Positions 26,622 to 55,947 of a stretch of DNA of 64,000 bases are shown here, piece by piece; position 1 is the stretch's first letter, and each line of letters opens with the position of its first letter. This stretch comes from Terriglobales bacterium (GTDB taxonomy: Bacteria > Acidobacteriota > Terriglobia > Terriglobales > Acidobacteriaceae): the NCBI GenBank assembly GCA_035651655.1, contig DASRFG010000035.1, positions 62,001 to 126,000 of the forward strand. The letters run 5' to 3'. The position numbers and the translations under genes are program-made. The notes under the pieces are model-generated. The model was not told where the DNA came from. It saw only the letters and a program-made list of their open reading frames with translations, and searched no databases.

Positions 26622-27080
26622 CGATGCTGACTGCACCACGTGGAAAGCGGAGAACATTCGGACTGATTACACCACCGTGGAAGCGCACGGCTTCAGCCGT
26701 GCGATAAGCCGGCCCAATAACCTTGGGCTTCAGCCCCTGACGAAGGAGAACATTCGGGCTGCTCCCCGCTCCTTCATATTTCGCCGCGCAAGCTCCCAAT
26801 GCTGAATGCAGCACCGTGGAAGCGCACGGCTTCAGCCGTGCGATAAGCCGGCCCAATAAACCTTGGGCTTCAGCCCCTGACGATGGAGAACATTCGGGCT
26901 GCACCACCGTGGAAGCGCACGGCTTCAGCCGTGCGATAAGCCCGATGCTGATTGCAGCACCGTGGAAGCGCACGGCTTCGACCGTGCGATAAGCCCAATG
27001 CTGATTGCAGCACCGTGGAAGCGCGCGGCTTCAGCCGTGCGATAAGCCGGCCCAATAACCTTGGGCTTCAGCCCCTGAGA
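26622..27080. repeat. Cluster of REP-like palindromic repeats, five good copies and one decayed
   Basis: This fills the spacer between two convergent genes. Copies begin with CACCGTGGAAGCGCACGGC at about 26673, 26812, 26905, 26958 and 27011, with a decayed one near 26622. Each holds the hairpin GCACGGCT-TC-AGCCGTGC; the first, second and fifth continue through GATAAGCCGGCCCAATAA to a second hairpin (GGGCTTCAGCCC). A GGAGAACATTCGG motif separates some copies. The same family, inverted, occurs at 50459-50700. Confidence 0.9.
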
Positions 27081-46263: not shown

Positions 46264-46685
46264 GGGACTTCCGGACCGTGGAGGTTAGCTTATCGCAAAA
46301 ATGGTTTGCTACAACCGCGCATCGGCAGTGAAATTTGGCGCAGAAATTAAGAGGGGAGCGACGGTTGCCCGTCGCTCCCCTTGGCTCGCACCCTCCCCCG
46401 AGGTACTCGCCAAACTCGTTGACTTCAACTCTCGAATTCTCGATGACGGTAGCCTCAAATCCAGAGGCGCTGACGCCAATCACTGGCATTCCAGCCCGTC
46501 CACTGCAGCGAATCCTAGCGGTCGCTCAAATTTCAGGCAAGGTAACGGAGGTAATAGGTAGTTTCTGCAAGCCATCTTCTGTTAGTCGCAGGGAGAGCGT
46601 TCCACAACGCCACGCGGCGCGTAACCTCGCCTTATTACCTACGAGACTTTACCGTAATCGCGAAGGGCCGTACTGTTGCGCCATC
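46264..46685. other. Intergenic region between dinB and the receiver-PilZ gene
   Basis: 422 bases between divergent genes. Apart from the strong hairpin at 46353-46380 there is no RNA gene or convincing ORF: a plus-strand frame from 46335 joins the downstream gene but its first ~117 residues lack domain-like content. No c-di-GMP riboswitch core was recognised. Confidence 0.4.
46353..46380. terminator. Perfect 12-bp GC-rich hairpin
   Basis: GGGGAGCGACGG-TTGC-CCGTCGCTCCCC. On the minus strand it is followed by a moderately T-rich TCTTAATTTCT. It lies 89 bases upstream of the dinB start, on the leader side rather than behind a gene, so an attenuator or the end of an unseen short RNA are options. 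Confidence 0.5.
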
Positions 46686-47441
46686 ATGTCGAGCGCAATC
46701 ATGCCTCTTGAATGTTTAGTGGTCTCGCGGCACCAGCCTTCGATTCGCGCCTTGGGCGCGGTGCTTGAGGAGTTGCACATTGCCAGCGAAATCTGCTCCG
46801 AGCCGCAACACGCACTGGATCAGATGGAGCGCCGCCATTTCGGCGCAGTCGTGCTCGATTTCGATACCCGCGGCGCGGCCCAACTGTTGGCGTCAGCTCG
46901 TATGACATCAACCCATCAGAAATCAGTAATCTTTGCCGCCATCAGCCGCTGCACCGCAACCGGCAGCGCTTTCGAATTAGGCGCCAACTTTGTGCTTTAC
47001 AAACCGCTGACCGGGGAACAGGTAGGCCGAGCTTTGCGCGCGGCACGCGGGTTCATGCGTCCGGAGCGCCGCGAGTTGGCGCGCCATCGCATGGAGGCGC
47101 TGGCATATATCAGTTGGGACAAAGAGTCGCCCTCTCCCGCCCTGCTTATCGACGTGAATGAAAGGGGAGTGGCGATCCAGGCCGCTGGCCCAATCTCTGC
47201 AGCCGGTCCCGTGCAGGTACGACTTCTTTTTCCAGGAACCTTGATCGAAGCTAAAGGCGAAATTACTTGGGCTGATACCCAAGGCCGGGCTGGCATTCAA
47301 CTCCTGGAGCTTGCGCCACGCGACCGTCGCGAACTGAAGAACTGGGTAACCACTCAATCCGAGAAGGGACGGACGGTTCCTGCCAATGGGCATCGTACGA
47401 AAGCCCGCGCAATGGCGGCCAAGCAGGGCGGATACCGTTAG
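46686..47441 (+). CDS. Receiver-like domain fused to PilZ domain
   Basis: 251 residues from the ATG at 46686. A CheY-like domain (about 5-120): 'CLVVSRHQPSIRALGAVLEEL' (no acidic pair), 'FGAVVLDFDTRGAAQLL' with a possible phospho-acceptor Asp, and 'FVLYKPLTGEQV' with Lys. The PilZ-like barrel (about 130-225) has 'PERRELARHRMEALAYISW' and 'LLIDVNERGVAIQAAGP', where Asn-Glu-Arg-Gly-Val corresponds to the (D/N)xSxxG loop. The missing acidic residues suggest phosphorylation may not occur. It ends with a basic tail. Possible link of a signalling input to surface or motility output. Confidence 0.75.
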   Translation: MSSAIMPLECLVVSRHQPSIRALGAVLEELHIASEICSEPQHALDQMERRHFGAVVLDFDTRGAAQLLASARMTSTHQKSVIFAAISRCTATGSAFELGANFVLYKPLTGEQVGRALRAARGFMRPERRELARHRMEALAYISWDKESPSPALLIDVNERGVAIQAAGPISAAGPVQVRLLFPGTLIEAKGEITWADTQGRAGIQLLELAPRDRRELKNWVTTQSEKGRTVPANGHRTKARAMAAKQGGYR

Positions 47442-47581: not shown

Positions 47582-50449
47582 ATGTCACTCCCCGAGAGGC
47601 CTCGCTTTCACAAACTGCTGACCGTACTCCTCGCTCTACTGTTCTGTTCGGCGGTTTATCTCTTTGCGTGGCCGCAGCCCAACATCTTTTATGCCGGAGT
47701 CGTGGTCTTGCACGTCGTGGTGGGACTGCTGACCAGCATTGTCCTGGCTATTACGGTGTGGCGGAAGTTGCGTCAGGAAACCGCGATTGCTCGGCTTGGC
47801 TGGGCGCTGCTTGTGGCTGGCGCTGCGCTGGGTTTGGTCCTTATTTATACCGGCACCCCACGCAGCGACTGGAACCGGCTGTATCTCCACATTGTGCTGT
47901 GCACCGCGGGAGTGGGCTTTCTGCTGGCTGATTGGGGCGGCCGTCGCGGCTGGCTACGTAATGTTCCGGCAGCAACAGTGGTACGCAGTATCGCGGTGCT
48001 CGCGTTGCTCGCTGGGCTGGGCGCTGCGGCTTGGTACACCCGCACAGCGGTCTGGCAGCGGAGCGCGCGGATTCAGAATCCGGACATTCCTCCCGCCAGC
48101 ATGGACGCTGAGGGCGACGGCCCCCAGGGTGCCTTCTTTCCCAGTTCAGCCCAGGTCAAGGGTGGGGGAAAGATTCCCAGCAAGTTCTTCATGGAGTCGG
48201 ATTCCTGCAAGCGCTGCCATGAAGATATCTACAACCAGTGGTACAGCTCGGCCCACCATTTTTCTTCCTTCAACAATCAGTGGTATCGCAAGAGCATTGA
48301 ATATATGCAGGACGTAGTCGGCACGCGGCCTTCAAAGTGGTGCGGCGGCTGCCATGACCCGGCGGTGCTCTACAGCGGGATGATGGATACGCCGATCCGG
48401 CAGATCATCCATACTCCGGAAGCCCAGGCAGGACTGGGCTGCATGATGTGCCACTCCATCGCGCAGGTCAAAAGCACCATGGGTCAGGGCGACTTCTACT
48501 TGGAATACCCCAAGCTTCACGAACTGGCGGCTACGAAGAATCCGCTCGCTCGCCGTGTCCATGATTTCCTGGTCAACTTGAATCCGGAACCGCACCGCAG
48601 AGTGTTTCTGAAGCCATTTATGCGGCAGCAGACCGCCGAATTCTGCTCTAGTTGCCACAAAGTCCATCTCGACGTGCCGGTGAATCATTATCGCTGGATC
48701 CGCGGCTTCAACGAGTACGACAATTGGCAGGCCAGCGGCGTCTCCGGCCAGGGAGCCCGGTCGTTTTACTATCCCGCCAAGCCGCAGCAATGCGCCGATT
48801 GCCATATGCCGCTCGCCGCCTCCAAGGACGCGGGCAATATCGCTGGGTTTGTGCACTCCCACCGATTTCCTGCCGCCAACACTGCGCTTCCCACCGCCAA
48901 TGAAGATGCCGCACAGCTCAAGCTCACAGAAAATTTCCTGAAAAACAACGCCATGAGCGTGGATATCTTCGCAGTCTCGCCCGCGCGCTCCAAAGCCGAA
49001 GCGACCATGGCTCCCCAGGCCGAACTGGCGACAACTTTTGCAGTAGGTGAGGAAGCGGAGGCCAAGCCAACCAAAGGTGAGTCAGGCGCCGCCGCTCCGG
49101 TTACTGCGCCGCTTAACCGCGTTCAGGCGGTGGTTCGCCGCGGCGATGATGTGCTGGTGGACACGGTGGTCCGCACGCGCAAGGTGGGACACTTTTTCCC
49201 CGGCGGAACGGTTGATGCTTACGATGTCTGGCTGGAACTGAAGGCCACCGATGATCGCGGGCAGACGCTGTTCTGGAGCGGGATGGTGGAAGACAACGGC
49301 AAGGGCCCGGTCGAAGCTGGAGCGCACTTCTATCGCTCCTTGCAGGTGGACGCGCACGGCAATCCCATCAATAAGCGTAATGCCTGGGCCACCAGGTCGC
49401 TGGTTTACGTCCACTTGATTCCGCCGGGCGCGGCTGATACCGCTCACTTTCGCCTACACATTCCTGATAATGCGGGCGACAAGATCAAACTGCAGGCCCG
49501 GCTGTGCTATCGCAAGTTCGCCTGGTGGAACACGCAATTCGCGTTTGCTGGTGTGCCCGATCCCAAGCAGTCCAAAGTCTCTGATCCGCAACACCCGCTT
49601 ACCACGCCTGAATACGACGACACACACTATTCGATCAAAGGCCCGGTGCGAGACGTCTCCGCCAAACAACAGGAAATTCCTGACCTGCCCATCGTGCCCG
49701 TGGCCGAAGACGAAGTTACGTTGCAGGTCGCGCCCCGGGCAGCACCCACGCCGCAGCCCAAGGTAGAACTCCAGGCAGCAGATTGGACGCGCTGGAACGA
49801 TTACGGGATCGGCCTACTGCTGCAAGGAGATTTGAAAGGCGCTGCCGCCGGGTTCGAGAAAATCACGCAGATTGATCCTAAAAATCCAGACGGTTGGGTC
49901 AACATCGGAAGAGTGGCCCAGCAGGAAGGCGACATGGAACGTGCCCGAGTGGTGCTCGAGAAAGCACTCGCCCTTGCTCCCAATCTCGCACGCGCAAACT
50001 TCTTTTACGCCAAGGTGCTGCGAAATGATGGTCGCTATGAAGAAGCAGCCCAGCATCTACGGACCGTGCTCGAGCAATATCCGCGTGACCGCGTCGCGCG
50101 CAATGACTTGGGGCGAATTTTGTTTCTACAACGCCGCTATGGCGACGCGGTGAAGCAGTTCCAGGCAGTGTTGTCGGTTGATCCCGAGGATTTGCAGGCG
50201 CACTACAACCTAATGCTTTGTTACACGGGAATGGGTGACGCCAAACAGGCACGCGAGCACCAGCTACGCTATCTGCGCTTCAAGGCAGACGAGGCTGCGC
50301 AGACAATCACCGGACCCTATCGGCGCTTGCACCCGGAAGACAACAACGAGCGGCAGCCGATTCACGAGCATGTCTCGGTGCCGCTAGCGGCTTTAAAAGC
50401 AAAACCAGGTGGGTTGAGAACGTCGGCCGCATCAGGAGCGGGCCGGTGA
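47582..50449 (+). CDS. Membrane-anchored pentaheme cytochrome c with C-terminal TPRs
   Basis: 955 residues. About five transmembrane helices occupy residues 11-152, with His44 and His103 inside or near them. The periplasmic part has five CxxCH sites (C209, C254, C287, C355, C404), with extra conserved-looking His around them, resembling the cytochrome c554/multiheme family. A beta-rich middle follows (about 540-720), then four or so TPR units (about 770-935, 'WNDYGIGLLLQGDLKGAAAGFE'). The start at 47582 precedes the first helix. It is coupled by a GTGA overlap to the next gene. Probably an electron-transfer and scaffold protein; partner unknown. Confidence 0.85.
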   Translation: MSLPERPRFHKLLTVLLALLFCSAVYLFAWPQPNIFYAGVVVLHVVVGLLTSIVLAITVWRKLRQETAIARLGWALLVAGAALGLVLIYTGTPRSDWNRLYLHIVLCTAGVGFLLADWGGRRGWLRNVPAATVVRSIAVLALLAGLGAAAWYTRTAVWQRSARIQNPDIPPASMDAEGDGPQGAFFPSSAQVKGGGKIPSKFFMESDSCKRCHEDIYNQWYSSAHHFSSFNNQWYRKSIEYMQDVVGTRPSKWCGGCHDPAVLYSGMMDTPIRQIIHTPEAQAGLGCMMCHSIAQVKSTMGQGDFYLEYPKLHELAATKNPLARRVHDFLVNLNPEPHRRVFLKPFMRQQTAEFCSSCHKVHLDVPVNHYRWIRGFNEYDNWQASGVSGQGARSFYYPAKPQQCADCHMPLAASKDAGNIAGFVHSHRFPAANTALPTANEDAAQLKLTENFLKNNAMSVDIFAVSPARSKAEATMAPQAELATTFAVGEEAEAKPTKGESGAAAPVTAPLNRVQAVVRRGDDVLVDTVVRTRKVGHFFPGGTVDAYDVWLELKATDDRGQTLFWSGMVEDNGKGPVEAGAHFYRSLQVDAHGNPINKRNAWATRSLVYVHLIPPGAADTAHFRLHIPDNAGDKIKLQARLCYRKFAWWNTQFAFAGVPDPKQSKVSDPQHPLTTPEYDDTHYSIKGPVRDVSAKQQEIPDLPIVPVAEDEVTLQVAPRAAPTPQPKVELQAADWTRWNDYGIGLLLQGDLKGAAAGFEKITQIDPKNPDGWVNIGRVAQQEGDMERARVVLEKALALAPNLARANFFYAKVLRNDGRYEEAAQHLRTVLEQYPRDRVARNDLGRILFLQRRYGDAVKQFQAVLSVDPEDLQAHYNLMLCYTGMGDAKQAREHQLRYLRFKADEAAQTITGPYRRLHPEDNNERQPIHEHVSVPLAALKAKPGGLRTSAASGAGR

Positions 50450-52386
50450 TTTTCTTCTCAGGGGCTAAAGCCCAACATTTGGGGCGGCTTTATCGCACGG
50501 CTGAAGCCGTGCGCCTCCACGGGGGTGCGATGAAGCCGTGCGCTTCCACGGTGGTGCAATCGGTATCGGGGGCTGGCCGGAGGAAATATCGGGAAGAGAA
50601 CGAGCAGGCCCAATCTTCTTTTTCATCGTCAGGGGCTAAAGCCCAAGATTTGGGGCGGCTTATCGCACGGCTGAAGCCGTGCGCTTCCACGGTGGCACGA
50701 TCGGCATCGGGGGTCGTTCTATTGGGGCTTGCAATCTTTACGCTTGCCACTCCCCTCGTTGCCCAGAACTCCAACATCCGCTTTCACGATATCACCCAAG
50801 CCGCGGGCATTCACTTCACCCACAACAACGGCGCCTTCGGAAAGAAATATCTGCCGGAGACAATGGGTCCGGGATGCGCGTTCATTGATTACGACAACGA
50901 CGGCTGGCCGGACATTCTCCTGATCAACGGCCAGGATTGGCCCGGCCACCATATTCACCATTCCACGCTGAAGCTCTTTCACAACAACCACAACGGTACG
51001 TTTACCGACGTCACTGCGAAGGCCGGCCTGGCAGTCGAGATGTTCGGCATGGGGGTTGCGATCGGCGATTACGACAACGACGGCTATGACGATATTTTTG
51101 TCACCGCCCTTGGCCAGAGCCGGTTGTTTCACAACAACGGCAATGGCACTTTCACGGACGCAACCAAGGCCGCCGGATTGTTGGGCCCGAACCAATTCAG
51201 CACCAGCGCGGCATGGGTGGATTATGATCGCGACGGGCGGCTCGACCTGGTTGTCGCGAACTACGTCCAGTGGTCGCAGCAGAACGATTTGTTCTGTACT
51301 CTTGATGGCACTCACAAGTCCTATTGCACGCCGGAGTCGTACAAGGGCGACTCCGTCCGCCTCTGGCACAACCTCGGGAATGGCAAGTTTGAAGACGCTA
51401 CCCAGAAGGCGGGCTTTTTTGATCCCACGTCGAAGAGCCTTGGCTTGGCCATTCTTGATTACAACCAGGATGGCTGGCCGGATATTCTGATCGCCAACGA
51501 CACGCAACCCAACAAGCTCTACCTGAACAAGCAGAACGGTAGTTTCGAAGAACGCGCACTGCCTGCCGGCGTGGCCTTCAGCGAAGACGGTGTGGCGCGT
51601 GCTGGCATGGGGGCAGATGCCGCCGACTACGACCGCTCCGGGCGGCCGAGTATTCTCATCACCAACTTTGCCAACCAAATGGTTTCTCTTTATCACAACG
51701 AAGGAAATGGCCTGTTCGTGGACGAAGCGCCGCGATCGGAAGTCGGTCGCGCCTCGTTGCTCACCCTGGGTTTCGGATGCTTCTTCTTCGACTACGACCT
51801 CGACGGCTGGCCCGACATCTTCGTCGCCGACGGCCACATTGAGAATGAAATTGAGCGCGTGCAGAAGCGTGTGAAATACGCCGAGCCGCCACATCTTTTT
51901 CGCAATCTTGGAAACCACCGGTTCGAGGAGGTGACCAGTTCTCTCGGACCAGCATTCAGCTCTCCCAAAGTCGGTCGTGCGGCCGCGTATGCCGATATTG
52001 ACAATGACGGTGACCTCGACCTTCTCATGACGACTAACGGCGGCCGCACCTACTTGTTCCGTAACGACGGGGCCACGAACCACAGTTTGCGCATCCGCCT
52101 AACAGGGACAAAATCCAACCGCGACGGTATTGGTGCAGTTGTGCGGATTGTTGCCGGGGATGAGAAGCAGTGGCAAATGTTGCGCAGCGGCTCCAGTTAT
52201 CTCTCGCAAAGTGAGCTGGTTTTGACTTTCGGCTTGGGGACGCGAACCAAGGTTGATTCGATAGAGGTGACTTGGCCGAGCGGACAGGTTGACAAGCTCA
52301 CGAACGTGGCCGCCGATCAGACGGTCACCATTCAGGAAGGCAAAGGTCTCAGCGCATCACGATCTTTTTCCAAAAGATCGCAATAG
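50446..52386 (+). CDS. CRTAC1-type VCBS/FG-GAP repeat protein with ASPIC/UnbV domain; 5' end made of repeat DNA
   Basis: Up to 646 residues. From about residue 85 the protein is orthodox: a signal-like hydrophobic stretch ('VVLLGLAIFTLATPLVAQ'), then seven or so VCBS/FG-GAP blades with calcium-binding DxDxDG loops ('FIDYDNDGWPDILL', 'IGDYDNDGYDDIFV'), then an ASPIC/UnbV domain ('RDGIGAVVRIVAG', 'SSYLSQSELVLTFGLG'). The first ~80 codons are the inverted palindromic repeats (50459-50700). The GTG at 50446 overlaps the preceding stop, ATG 50530 is an alternative, and the Arg/Lys encoded by the last repeat would provide the basic start of the signal peptide. Probably exported. Confidence 0.8.
   Translation: MIFFSGAKAQHLGRLYRTAEAVRLHGGAMKPCASTVVQSVSGAGRRKYREENEQAQSSFSSSGAKAQDLGRLIARLKPCASTVARSASGVVLLGLAIFTLATPLVAQNSNIRFHDITQAAGIHFTHNNGAFGKKYLPETMGPGCAFIDYDNDGWPDILLINGQDWPGHHIHHSTLKLFHNNHNGTFTDVTAKAGLAVEMFGMGVAIGDYDNDGYDDIFVTALGQSRLFHNNGNGTFTDATKAAGLLGPNQFSTSAAWVDYDRDGRLDLVVANYVQWSQQNDLFCTLDGTHKSYCTPESYKGDSVRLWHNLGNGKFEDATQKAGFFDPTSKSLGLAILDYNQDGWPDILIANDTQPNKLYLNKQNGSFEERALPAGVAFSEDGVARAGMGADAADYDRSGRPSILITNFANQMVSLYHNEGNGLFVDEAPRSEVGRASLLTLGFGCFFFDYDLDGWPDIFVADGHIENEIERVQKRVKYAEPPHLFRNLGNHRFEEVTSSLGPAFSSPKVGRAAAYADIDNDGDLDLLMTTNGGRTYLFRNDGATNHSLRIRLTGTKSNRDGIGAVVRIVAGDEKQWQMLRSGSSYLSQSELVLTFGLGTRTKVDSIEVTWPSGQVDKLTNVAADQTVTIQEGKGLSASRSFSKRSQ
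50459..50700. repeat. Inverted copies of the 26.7-kb palindromic repeat family
   Basis: Two near-complete units (about 50459-50522 and 50629-50698) and one partial (about 50531-50555), in opposite orientation to the cluster at 26.6-27.1 kb: GGGGCTAAAGCCC, then GCACGGCTGAAGCCGTGC, then CGCTTCCACGGTGG. They lie inside the apparent 5' coding part of the CRTAC1-type gene, in frame and without stop codons. Confidence 0.85.
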
Positions 52387-52431
52387 TTGGTAAGCTGTTG
52401 CCGCTCACCTCGAACGAAATATCCACGGCTC

Positions 52432-55400
52432 ATGGTGAATTTGAAATCCCCGCGACGCGTTGCTTTTCTTCTGGTGCTGATGGTTCTTTTTGCGCTAGCC
52501 GCACTGACCCTTGTCGGCCAAACTAAACGTGCCTCCCCAAAAATACCCAAACAATCCGCGTCAACCTCCCCCGCCACATCGCGAGCCGCTCAAGCCGATA
52601 GCCTGAATAATCTCGGCGTCGGATATATGAACCAGCAGCAGTTCGAAAAGGCGCTCGGATATTTTCGGCGGGCGTATGCGCTGCAGCCTCGATTAACCAT
52701 CGCACGCCTCAATCAAGCAATCGCTCTGTTGAATTTGCAACGCATGGAACAAGCCACCGCCATCCTGCTGGACATCGTGAAACACGATCCGCAAAACGTC
52801 CGCGCCTGGTACAACCTGGGCCTGCTCTACAAGAGTGAAGGCCAGGCAGAGCCCGCGGCAGATGCCTTTGAGCACGTCACGAAACTCGATCGTACCGACG
52901 CCGACTCCTTCTATTTTCTCGGTTCCGTGCGCATGCAGTTGAAACAGTATCCACAGGCGATCGCCGCTTTCCAGCAAGCGCTGAAGCTGAATACTTATCA
53001 TGCCTCGGCGGAGTTCGGCCTTGCACGGGCGTACCAGCAATCCGGAGATCTGGCGCACGCCCGCGAGCACCTGGCGCGCTTCCAGCAGATCACGAAAATA
53101 AAACTGGGAACTCCGATGAGCGTGGCCTATGGCGAACAAGGCCCACTGTCGCTGGCAGCCACTTCTTCAGCGACTCCCGAGCCCGTCCCGCCCGCCATCC
53201 CGGTCCGCCTCGTTGATGTCAGCGCCCATGCCGGTTTGGGGAGTTCATCTGCCGGCCAGGAAAAACCAAGCCTCGACCGTGCTTCAACTTTTCTGCCGCC
53301 GGGAGCGTGTGTTTTTGACTTCGACGGCGACGGCCATCCCGACCTCTTTATTGCCGATGGCGGCCCGCAGGGGGGGATGGCCTTATACCGCAACCTTGGC
53401 GATGGGCGCTTTGCGGATGTGACCAAGGCCGCAGGACTTGACCCCAACGCTCACGCAATCGCATGCGCGGCAGGAGATTACGACAACGATGGTTTCACCG
53501 ATCTTGCCATCGGCTTCAACGGTCGTGTTGCGCTATATCACAACGAAAAAGATGGCAAGTTCCGCGACGTGACTCAATCCAGCGAGGTTCGGGTGAACGG
53601 ACTGCCGCTGGGCATGACTTTCATTGACTACGATCATGACGGTGACCTTGACCTCTACATCACGCGCGGTGTGGACGTTGCCAATAAGAGCGGCAAAAAG
53701 CGCGGCCAGGAAGGGGAACAGAGCAATATTCTTCTTCGTAACAACGGCAACCAGACCTTCACCGATGTCACCGGAGAAACTGGTTTGCAAGGGCCTGGAT
53801 TCAGCCTCGGCGCAGTGAGCACCGATCTTAATAACGATCGCGCAATAGACCTGGTAGTCACATCGCCGGAGAAGCCGCCGACGATCTTCTTGAATCCGCG
53901 TGAGGGAAAGTTTTCAACCCTGGGCTCATGGAGCGGCGCCATGCCGCCCCCTGCGGCGGGGGTCGCGGTTCTCGACTACAACAAAGATGGCTGGATGGAT
54001 CTCGCGTTTACCCATTGGAGCGCGCCCGGTCTTAGTTTGTGGCGCAATGCCGAGGGCAAGAGCTTTGAGCCGGTGCAGCTGCCCAAGCTGAATTGGGCAC
54101 GGGGATGGGGTTTGGCCGCACTCGACTTTGATAACGACGGCTGGATTGATCTGGCCGCCGTGGGCGAAACCGACGATGGCCGCGGCGAGGTTCGCCTCTT
54201 CCGCAACCTCGGCCCGAATGGATTCAAAGACGTGACCGCCGAGGTCGGCCTGGACAAAATTCAACTGCACGATCCGCGCGCGCTGGTGACCTGGGATTAC
54301 GACGGCGATGGCGCCACCGATCTACTCATCACCCAAAATCATGGCCCGGTTGTGCTGTTGCGCAACCAGGGCGGCAGCCGTAATAACTGGCTGCGCATCG
54401 CGCTCAAAGGTTTAAACGATAACAAGAGCGCCATCGGCGCCAAAGTCGAAGTATTCGCCGGCGCAGTTCACCAGAAATGGGAGGTGCAGGGAAGCTCGGG
54501 TTACCTGGGACAAAATTCGCCGGAGATCACCGCTGGACTCAACGGCCAAAGCACCGTGGACGTGCTCCGTCTGCTGTGGCCCACTGGCGTGGTGCAGGAT
54601 GAAATCCAGTTGGCGGCACGAAAACAGGCGAACATCCTGGAGATAGATCGCCGCGGCAGTTCGTGCCCGACGCTGTTTGCCTGGGATGGCAAACATTTTG
54701 ATTTCATTTCAGACATGCTGGGCGCGGGCGTCGTCGGGCACTGGGTCGGGCCGGGTGAGCGCAACATTCCACGTCCGACGGAGTACGTAAAAATTGATGG
54801 CGATCATATCCGTCTGCGCGACGGCAAGCTCAGCTTCCGGTTCATGGAGCCGATGGAGGAGGTGGTTTATCTCGACCACACGCGCCTGCTAGCGGTGGAC
54901 CATCCGGCTGACACCGAGGTTTACCCCAACGAATATTTCGCCAGCAATCCTCCGTATCCGGAATTCAAGGTGATCTCAAGCCGGAATGCGCGTCCTCCGG
55001 TTGCTGCCCGGGACGACGCCGGCAGCGATGTCCTAGCGCAGTTGCTCTACCGGGACCGCAAATATGTCACCGGGTTCGAGCTGCTGCCATTCGCTGGATT
55101 CACGAAGATGCATACGTTGGAGCTGGATTTGGGCGAACCTTATGCAAGCGGTCCGCTGCGACTGCTGCTGCACGGATATGTTGACTACTTCACGGCTACG
55201 AGCATGTACGCGGCGAATCAGGCTGGTGTTCACGCCGTCGCTCCTTACATTGAGGCGCTGCGTTCCAATGGGAAATGGACGCGCGTGGTGGACGACATGG
55301 GATTCCCCGCCGGCCTGCCGCGCACGATTACTACCGACCTGAGCAAGAAGTTGCCCGCGGGCACGCGGCGCATTTGCATCCGCACGAATCTGCAAATTTA

Positions 55401-55947
55401 CTGGGACCAGGTGCTGATTGATCGCACCGATGATACGCAGCTCTCCGTGCGGCTTACGCCGGTGCCGCTGGCCGACGCTCAGCTCCGCTTCCACGGATAT
55501 CCCCGCCAAGTCGCGCGCAGCCTGCCCGGGGACATCAATTTTCTTTACGACCAGGTGAGCGCGACCGGCCCGTACGCACGCGAGCAGGGCAACTACACAC
55601 GTTATGGAGACGTAGTGCCTCTGGTGTCAAAATCAGATGATCGCTTTGTGGTGTTCGGGTCTGGCGAGGAAGTCGCGCTGGATTTCGATCCCAGGTCGCT
55701 GCCGCCGCTTTCTCCGGGTTGGAAGAGGGATTATTTCTTTATGGCCGATGGTTATGAGAAAGACATGGATTTTTACGCTGCCGAGGCCAACACCGTTGCG
55801 CCGCTGCCATTCCATGACATGGGTGTGTACCCCTATAGCGCGGGGAAAGGTCTCCCGCTCGATGACATGCGTCTGAGAGATCTGCTGGAATACAACACCC
55901 GCTACATTTCAGGGAGCGAACCGAGGAGCTATCGCTTCCAATTCTAG
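52432..55947 (+). CDS. TPR + VCBS/FG-GAP + ASPIC/UnbV protein with long C-terminal domain of unknown type
   Basis: 1171 residues. A signal anchor (about 8-28) precedes four to five TPRs (about 45-220, 'LNNLGVGYMNQQQFEKALGYF'), seven VCBS blades with DxDxDG loops (about 285-620, 'VFDFDGDGHPDLFI'), and an ASPIC/UnbV domain (about 640-735, 'NWLRIALKGLNDNKSAIGA'). The last ~430 residues begin 'SCPTLFAWDGKHFDFISDMLG' and contain many aromatic residues and 'VDYFTATSMYAANQ'; I cannot assign them. The ATG at 52432 is preferred over 52387. It follows the CRTAC1-type gene by 45 bases and completes a three-gene set with the pentaheme cytochrome. Likely outside the cytoplasm. Confidence 0.82.
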   Translation: MVNLKSPRRVAFLLVLMVLFALAALTLVGQTKRASPKIPKQSASTSPATSRAAQADSLNNLGVGYMNQQQFEKALGYFRRAYALQPRLTIARLNQAIALLNLQRMEQATAILLDIVKHDPQNVRAWYNLGLLYKSEGQAEPAADAFEHVTKLDRTDADSFYFLGSVRMQLKQYPQAIAAFQQALKLNTYHASAEFGLARAYQQSGDLAHAREHLARFQQITKIKLGTPMSVAYGEQGPLSLAATSSATPEPVPPAIPVRLVDVSAHAGLGSSSAGQEKPSLDRASTFLPPGACVFDFDGDGHPDLFIADGGPQGGMALYRNLGDGRFADVTKAAGLDPNAHAIACAAGDYDNDGFTDLAIGFNGRVALYHNEKDGKFRDVTQSSEVRVNGLPLGMTFIDYDHDGDLDLYITRGVDVANKSGKKRGQEGEQSNILLRNNGNQTFTDVTGETGLQGPGFSLGAVSTDLNNDRAIDLVVTSPEKPPTIFLNPREGKFSTLGSWSGAMPPPAAGVAVLDYNKDGWMDLAFTHWSAPGLSLWRNAEGKSFEPVQLPKLNWARGWGLAALDFDNDGWIDLAAVGETDDGRGEVRLFRNLGPNGFKDVTAEVGLDKIQLHDPRALVTWDYDGDGATDLLITQNHGPVVLLRNQGGSRNNWLRIALKGLNDNKSAIGAKVEVFAGAVHQKWEVQGSSGYLGQNSPEITAGLNGQSTVDVLRLLWPTGVVQDEIQLAARKQANILEIDRRGSSCPTLFAWDGKHFDFISDMLGAGVVGHWVGPGERNIPRPTEYVKIDGDHIRLRDGKLSFRFMEPMEEVVYLDHTRLLAVDHPADTEVYPNEYFASNPPYPEFKVISSRNARPPVAARDDAGSDVLAQLLYRDRKYVTGFELLPFAGFTKMHTLELDLGEPYASGPLRLLLHGYVDYFTATSMYAANQAGVHAVAPYIEALRSNGKWTRVVDDMGFPAGLPRTITTDLSKKLPAGTRRICIRTNLQIYWDQVLIDRTDDTQLSVRLTPVPLADAQLRFHGYPRQVARSLPGDINFLYDQVSATGPYAREQGNYTRYGDVVPLVSKSDDRFVVFGSGEEVALDFDPRSLPPLSPGWKRDYFFMADGYEKDMDFYAAEANTVAPLPFHDMGVYPYSAGKGLPLDDMRLRDLLEYNTRYISGSEPRSYRFQF

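Follow-up and report, generated by a model that had tools for sequence, protein, structure and literature searches.

A predicted membrane pentaheme cytochrome with a TPR tail and its adjacent CRTAC1-type gene in Acidobacteriota

In the cytochrome c552 of Thermochromatium tepidum (5ze8) and the ExtKL/PHC proteins of Geobacter and cable bacteria a beta (Ig-like) domain comes after the pentaheme domain, and a similar arrangement is indicated for the product of gene A, the first of three adjacent genes (A, B and C) at positions 47582-55947 of a 64,000-nucleotide stretch of a Terriglobales bacterium (contig DASRFG010000035.1, positions 62,001 to 126,000), the whole of which is referred to as the window. 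What sets A apart from c552 and ExtKL is a membrane domain of five helices that contains two invariant histidines, together with a TPR (tetratricopeptide repeat) tail and a CRTAC1-type partner, B; the TPR tail and the membrane domain are new relative to proteins of the c552/ExtKL kind. Sequence comparison shows that A and B are truly conserved as a unit, and their adjacency suggests an as yet undescribed module for electron transfer in the envelope of Acidobacteriota. Members of this phylum are widespread in soils, and their electron-transfer chains are, to our knowledge, little known. As a cytochrome-propeller pair present in many families of the phylum, A and B may serve as a marker for such an envelope redox module; the pair would give the bacterial CRTAC1/ASPIC family a functional context, and it makes heme b binding and quinone reaction of the two-histidine membrane domain testable. 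A search of the open-access literature found no description of this gene set.

The small pentaheme cytochromes of cable bacteria are reported to have a c552-like structure and are assigned to the same family as ExtKL, and the source also cites a proposal that c552 is related to an archaeal nanowire cytochrome (available portion of PMC11976967). Like CbcL/MtrH/MtoC and ImcH, A joins membrane helices to a multiheme c domain and has histidines conserved in the membrane part, of which there are three in CbcL homologs and two in A. In the excerpted text of PMC6295460, CbcL has its hemes first and then six helices like those of HydC/FdnI, and ImcH combines three helices with a CX3CH motif and is partially similar to NapC/NirT. 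Unlike CbcL, A carries its five helices before the hemes and shows no significant match to cytochrome b561 (PF01292), and unlike ImcH it is without CX3CH in the 61 loci checked and has no significant NapC/NirT match. A may act like CbcL or ImcH, though without their defining features. A further comparison is offered by the hydrazine-synthase-like clades I-III, in which a CRTAC1-annotated FG-GAP gene likewise lies beside multiheme genes. It is placed between homologs of multiheme hydrazine synthase subunits, some with c554 domains, and its neighbours are alpha and beta-gamma homologs (as far as the accessible part of PMC12758564 goes), whereas here the neighbour is a membrane pentaheme-TPR protein. 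Both B and C are of the CRTAC1 type, as FG-GAP repeats and UnbV_ASPIC are found in them above cut-off. The features of the locus are listed below in window coordinates.

47582-50449, + strand: gene A (955 amino acids), encoding a membrane pentaheme cytochrome of the c type that carries an Ig-like domain and a TPR tail
47600-48064, + strand: predicted membrane domain of A, residues 7-161, five helices (model), with invariant His44 (47711), Gly48 (47723) and His103 (47888)
48170-48943, + strand: pentaheme domain of A (Pfam Cytochrome_C554), CXXCH codons beginning at 48206, 48341, 48440, 48644 and 48791
48941-49747, + strand: Ig-like beta domain of A with invariant His537 in GHFFPGG (VIA-align, model residues 454-722)
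49790-50296, + strand: C-terminal TPR array of A (Pfam TPR families; consensus TPR matches in the PDB)
50446-50449, + strand: GTGA overlap of the A stop with the earliest possible B start (sequence)
50450-50713, + strand: dispersed palindromic repeat, two copies, separating the GTGA overlap from the signal peptide of B
50692-52386, + strand: gene B, likely start GTG 50692, frame open from 50446; signal-peptide-like start, FG-GAP repeats, ASPIC at 52126-52329
52432-55947, + strand: gene C, in a frame that is open from TTG 52387, with ATG 52432 as the likely start; signal peptide or anchor
52594-53082 and 54430-54618, + strand: TPR and ASPIC domains of C, which also has FG-GAP repeats (Pfam)
54976-55428, + strand: putative jelly roll of C (F5/8-type-C/CBM32-like), within the C-terminal region without Pfam match (VIA-align, model residues 120-270)

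An earlier, sequence-only reading had placed three genes here, with TPRs in the first and last and VCBS/ASPIC propellers in the last two. Open frames for A, B and C are present, TPRs in A and C and FG-GAP with UnbV_ASPIC in B and C are matched above Pfam cut-off, and the GTGA overlap proposed between A and B is found at 50446-50449. The description of A as a membrane-bound multiheme protein likewise agrees with its five CXXCH motifs and five hydrophobic helices, membrane crossing being judged from sequence. The signal peptides of B and C were judged by eye.

Co-occurrence and adjacency of A and B

Presence was scored in 150 genomes of the family at identities of at least 55% for A (fragments counted), 64% for B and 46% for C. 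The presence sets were compiled from searches including those at E 1e-100 and 1e-120, and the counts refer to the matches listed, in genomes that are not independent of one another; C matches at 35-36% in G093 and G133 were counted as absent, and B of G050 was taken from its locus, L024. A is present in 59 of the 150 genomes and a B ortholog in all 59, with B present in 61 genomes in total, the other two (G117 and G125) being those where only a B fragment was found. Organisms with A include Candidatus Sulfotelmatobacter, Angelobacter and Acidiferrum, and the first 735 residues of A are matched at E 1e-30 or better in 121 of 396 genomes of the phylum, again among the matches listed.

Removal of 21 duplicates from 133 A loci leaves 112 distinct ones, and in 108 of these B lies directly downstream of A. 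Two of the four exceptions are contig ends, one (L042) has a rearranged B, and in the last (L126) 925 nucleotides run to the contig end with no B match there. Co-conservation of the cytochrome and VCBS genes, on which the sequence-only reading had been made to depend, is thus borne out for A and B, which co-occur and stay adjacent. The pairing was also followed in 40 distant loci and eight still more remote picks, six of which have no membrane domain, all hand-chosen from match lists. At 48-58% identity B adjoins A in 16 of 20 loci, and the order A, B, C on one strand occurs in 9 of the 20; at 29-38% identity B lies within about 0.6 kb in 14 of 20 loci, and it is next to A in 4 of the 8 picks. 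In a tree of B, 101 of 131 A-adjacent B proteins, plus the rearranged one, fall into the window clade, the node of which has a support of 0.184, and the other 30 come from distant loci. The next larger clade (support 0.983) takes in a further 21 proteins that are non-adjacent, and by their coordinates 20 of them lie just upstream of A (strand seen for eight). Identities of A and B correlate with r 0.95 over 149 pairs that include duplicate and distant loci, and with 0.67 over 107 near pairs. That A and B are mere neighbours through general synteny is hardly credible: genes after C (provisional labels APC, GH2 and PpiD) are also kept in many close relatives, but elsewhere in the phylum other families retain the pair among different neighbours, and the start/stop overlap in relatives together with the matching presence largely contradicts such an explanation.

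In 72 of the 108 loci the A stop shows the usual overlap with a start codon, and in 69 of these the B frame is the overlapping-start frame and is open, where 24 would be expected if the frame were random. ATG on the last base of the A stop occurs in 37 loci and is in the open frame of B in every one (37/37); a narrower count of the start/stop overlap gives 57/108. The start/stop coupling of A and B is probably ancestral. In the window the signal-peptide-like stretch of B begins near GTG 50692, and as the two repeat copies follow directly after the overlap, placing the signal peptide near 50692, the true N-terminus of B is uncertain in this genome. The palindrome has 28 strand-wise matches in the genome at up to two mismatches, several of which are both strands of one site; five places at 26685-27040 of the window carry the same repeat at up to two mismatches, and 4 of the 108 loci, the window included, have a match to a loose core of it between the two genes. 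The repeats may have landed later, in this genome, between the coupled start and the signal peptide of B.

The order MFS transporter, histidine kinase, LuxR-family response regulator, B paralog, A, B is seen in 6 of 11 mostly gp2 loci, and the part of it nearest to A in two more (L119 and L116), the families being assigned from L120 only. The presence of a kinase and regulator upstream of A suggests, from gene order, regulated expression. At 4943-8098 of L120 the transporter, kinase and regulator genes lie directly upstream of the B paralog and A. An A-B fusion was considered for a 1547-amino-acid frame in L152, where the TPR part matches in another frame and a frameshift is likelier. Beyond Acidobacteriota the search covered plasmids and one contig scan, which kept 80 of 476 relatives, all Acidobacteriota-named. 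The plasmid search with the first 735 residues of A gave 17 records, none covering 80% of the query, and the 15 matches listed show 21-28% identity and include Granulicella, Shinella, Nitratiruptor, Aeromonas and Leptospira.

Hemes and membrane domain of A

The CXXCH motifs of A lie at residues 209, 254, 287, 355 and 404, whereas the maximum count in 20000 shuffles of the protein is two, and the Cytochrome_C554 and TPR families are matched above Pfam cut-off. All five motifs are kept in 152 of 161 A proteins; among the other nine, eight have CX4CH at heme 1 and one has CXXCR at heme 5. A cytochrome lacking heme, which would have spoken against the sequence-only reading, is not what this conservation suggests. 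The CX4CH spacing is found in distant relatives of A, at loci L154, L157, L159, L163, L173, L174, L062 and L063. CcmE is present in the window's own genome, which makes attachment of heme to A by system I plausible; ResB of system II was searched for in that genome and not found.

By profile, the heme and Ig-like part of A matches 5ze8 with E 3.2e-4, over the first hemes only. Comparison of the A model with 5ze8 in VIA-align gives Z 7.2 and a root-mean-square deviation (rmsd) of 5.1 over 233 residues (model residues 197-714), a match that is dominated by the Ig-like domain. The ExtKL model matches 25 of 43 A members at E 0.01 or better, with a best E of 5.4e-9. The window A itself scores 22.8 bits against ExtKL (NCBIfam NF040886) and is thus below membership at the curated cut-off of 250, and it is likewise far from the membership score of every heme-family model tested (ExtKL, GSU2203 and OmcA/MtrC).

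Besides the histidines of the CXXCH motifs, His 225, 427 and 537 are invariant in the 161 proteins and His 338 is present in 160, and His 362 is constant only in the closer groups (15/20 and 0/8 in distant ones), so that one heme may lack a histidine ligand. This pattern could be read as that of an enzyme: A would then be a multiheme reductase or oxidase anchored in the membrane, with a nitrogen or sulfur compound as a conceivable substrate, an open site at one heme and B in the catalytic complex. Weak matches to the NrfB and NrfH models (10 and 1 of 43 members) and the CRTAC1-annotated FG-GAP gene between hydrazine synthase subunit multiheme homologs (accessible part of PMC12758564) are in line with catalysis. 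However, window A matches no known reductase above a curated cut-off and the assignment of heme ligands requires a heme-bound structure, and an enzymatic role is considered unlikely.

The membrane domain of the A model consists of five long helices (residues 7-29, 35-65, 68-90, 94-121 and 131-161) with ten-residue means of the predicted local distance difference test (pLDDT) that are mostly 77-93. Among the transmembrane positions only His44, Gly48 and His103 reach a frequency of 1.00, in 151 proteins with an aligned membrane domain at 28% identity or more, and His44 and His103 are each located nine residues into the second and fourth helix, respectively. Nine of the 161 proteins are without these histidines in the alignment, eight being gapped at both positions and L064 having a gap and an Asn; six of the nine are the distant picks without transmembrane helices (L064-L069), two are distant (L171 and L174) and one is a near relative (L117). 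Net charge is highest in the loops between helices 2 and 3 (2.3) and 4 and 5 (2.7), compared with -0.06 between helices 1 and 2 and 0.86 between helices 3 and 4, which suggests that both histidines are near the periplasmic face. The two-histidine arrangement would fit the needs of a bis-histidine heme b or of a quinone site.

Possible role in envelope electron transfer

It is proposed, at about even chances, that A is an inner-membrane protein which carries electrons between the quinone pool and a wire of hemes and holds B as its dedicated partner by its TPR tail. In this proposal the His44/His103 site of the five-helix domain would bind a b-type heme or a quinone, electrons would pass between the quinone pool and the periplasmic wire of five c-type hemes, which would be c552/ExtKL-like, and the periplasmic TPR tail would dock B, a secreted FG-GAP/ASPIC propeller. 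C, which has its own TPR and a glycan-binding-like jelly roll, would join the module in part of the phylum. Since c-type hemes must sit outside the cytoplasm, the envelope location suggested in the sequence-only reading fits these hemes as well as the helices of A and the signal-peptide-like starts of B and C. A physical complex, which that reading also envisaged, may exist, the one direct hint of it being a single in-frame fusion of B and C in locus L047.

Several results weigh against this proposal. The mean pLDDT of the A model is 63 and its Z of 7.2 may come from a common arrangement, and plain Foldseek with the model gave no match under E 0.001. The GSU2203 and OmcA/MtrC decaheme models match 26 and 22 of the 43 A members, which is about like ExtKL. 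The charges that bear on topology are mixed, since the stretch after the fifth helix carries a positive net charge as well (1.9) and that of the N-terminus is close to zero (0.3). Pfam gave nothing significant on the membrane domain (best E 0.011), and cytochrome b561 (PF01292) and NapC/NirT (PF03264) match A only at E 7.1 and E 2, so heme b is putative only and no quinone site is predicted. In distant loci B is not just downstream of A in 4/20, 6/20 and 4/8 cases, FG-GAP/ASPIC proteins are common in this genome (UnbV_ASPIC has 13 matches there, B and C among them, in a large paralog family), and C occurs in genomes without A.

The resemblance of the heme part to ExtKL and c552, the cited c552-nanowire link (available portion of PMC11976967) and the signal-peptide-like starts of both propeller proteins, judged by eye, could also be taken to mean that electrons pass from A to B and C and on to the cell surface. 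Such extracellular transfer is distinctly unlikely, since B and C match no cytochrome family and at the locus no outer-membrane conduit is seen. The reach to the cell surface that had been raised in the sequence-only reading also finds little room in the genome, in which the MtrB/PioB porin (PF11854) was not found by a profile that no control genome passed at cut-off, other porin types not being searched, and the c554 profile matches two places, other multiheme families not being searched. The TPRs allow for a different explanation, namely that TPR proteins and propellers build other envelope cytochromes or structures and that the hemes of A serve sensing or maturation; the TPRs of A and C indeed exceed the Pfam cut-off for the CcmH/CycH TPR (49.4 and 55.5 bits versus 42). 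However, TPR models cross-match freely and many TPR families are matched, and A carries five heme motifs of its own as well as the invariant membrane histidines, which makes an assembly or chaperone module very unlikely.

If A is indeed a quinone-linked electron-transfer protein, it could stand beside CymA, ImcH and CbcL as one more class of quinone/multiheme-cytochrome oxidoreductase of the inner membrane, in which a five-helix two-histidine domain, an ExtKL-like wire, a TPR dock and a dedicated heme-free propeller are combined across Acidobacteriota; this wider assignment is tentative and on balance doubtful.

Gene C and the surroundings of the locus

The start of C is probably ATG 52432 rather than TTG 52387, judging from the signal-peptide-like stretch. 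The last 442 residues of C have no Pfam match, and the model of residues ~864-1014 resembles an F5/8-type-C/CBM32-like jelly roll with VIA-align Z up to 9.6 and consistent rows; plain Foldseek with the C-terminal model gave one match, with an rmsd of 19.7. Folds of this type are often glycan-binding, and a shared fold is no proof of function.

C is present in 53 of the 59 genomes with A and in 37 of the 91 without it, among the matches listed. Of the 112 A loci, 58 have C downstream, 3 have it upstream on the strand of A and 2 have it in divergent orientation; a further 32 offer downstream room but show no C, and 17 end too soon. With room judged downstream only, 63 of the 95 loci that have it include C. 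On these counts C is a frequent, non-obligate companion of A. The three-gene set of the sequence-only reading therefore stands as far as the A-B pair is concerned, which is firm, and not for C, which is not tied to A, so that the full set is found in part of the lineages only.

At 10856-15706 of L047, from a single draft genome, B and C are in one open frame of 1617 codons, in which C matches from after its signal-peptide stretch. A similar fusion suspected in L162 from a 1620-amino-acid frame was not found on closer look.

A promoter and terminator scan gave counts inside the range of shuffles. Upstream of A, on the same strand at 46335-47441, lies a gene for a PilZ-domain protein, relatives of which precede A in several close relatives.

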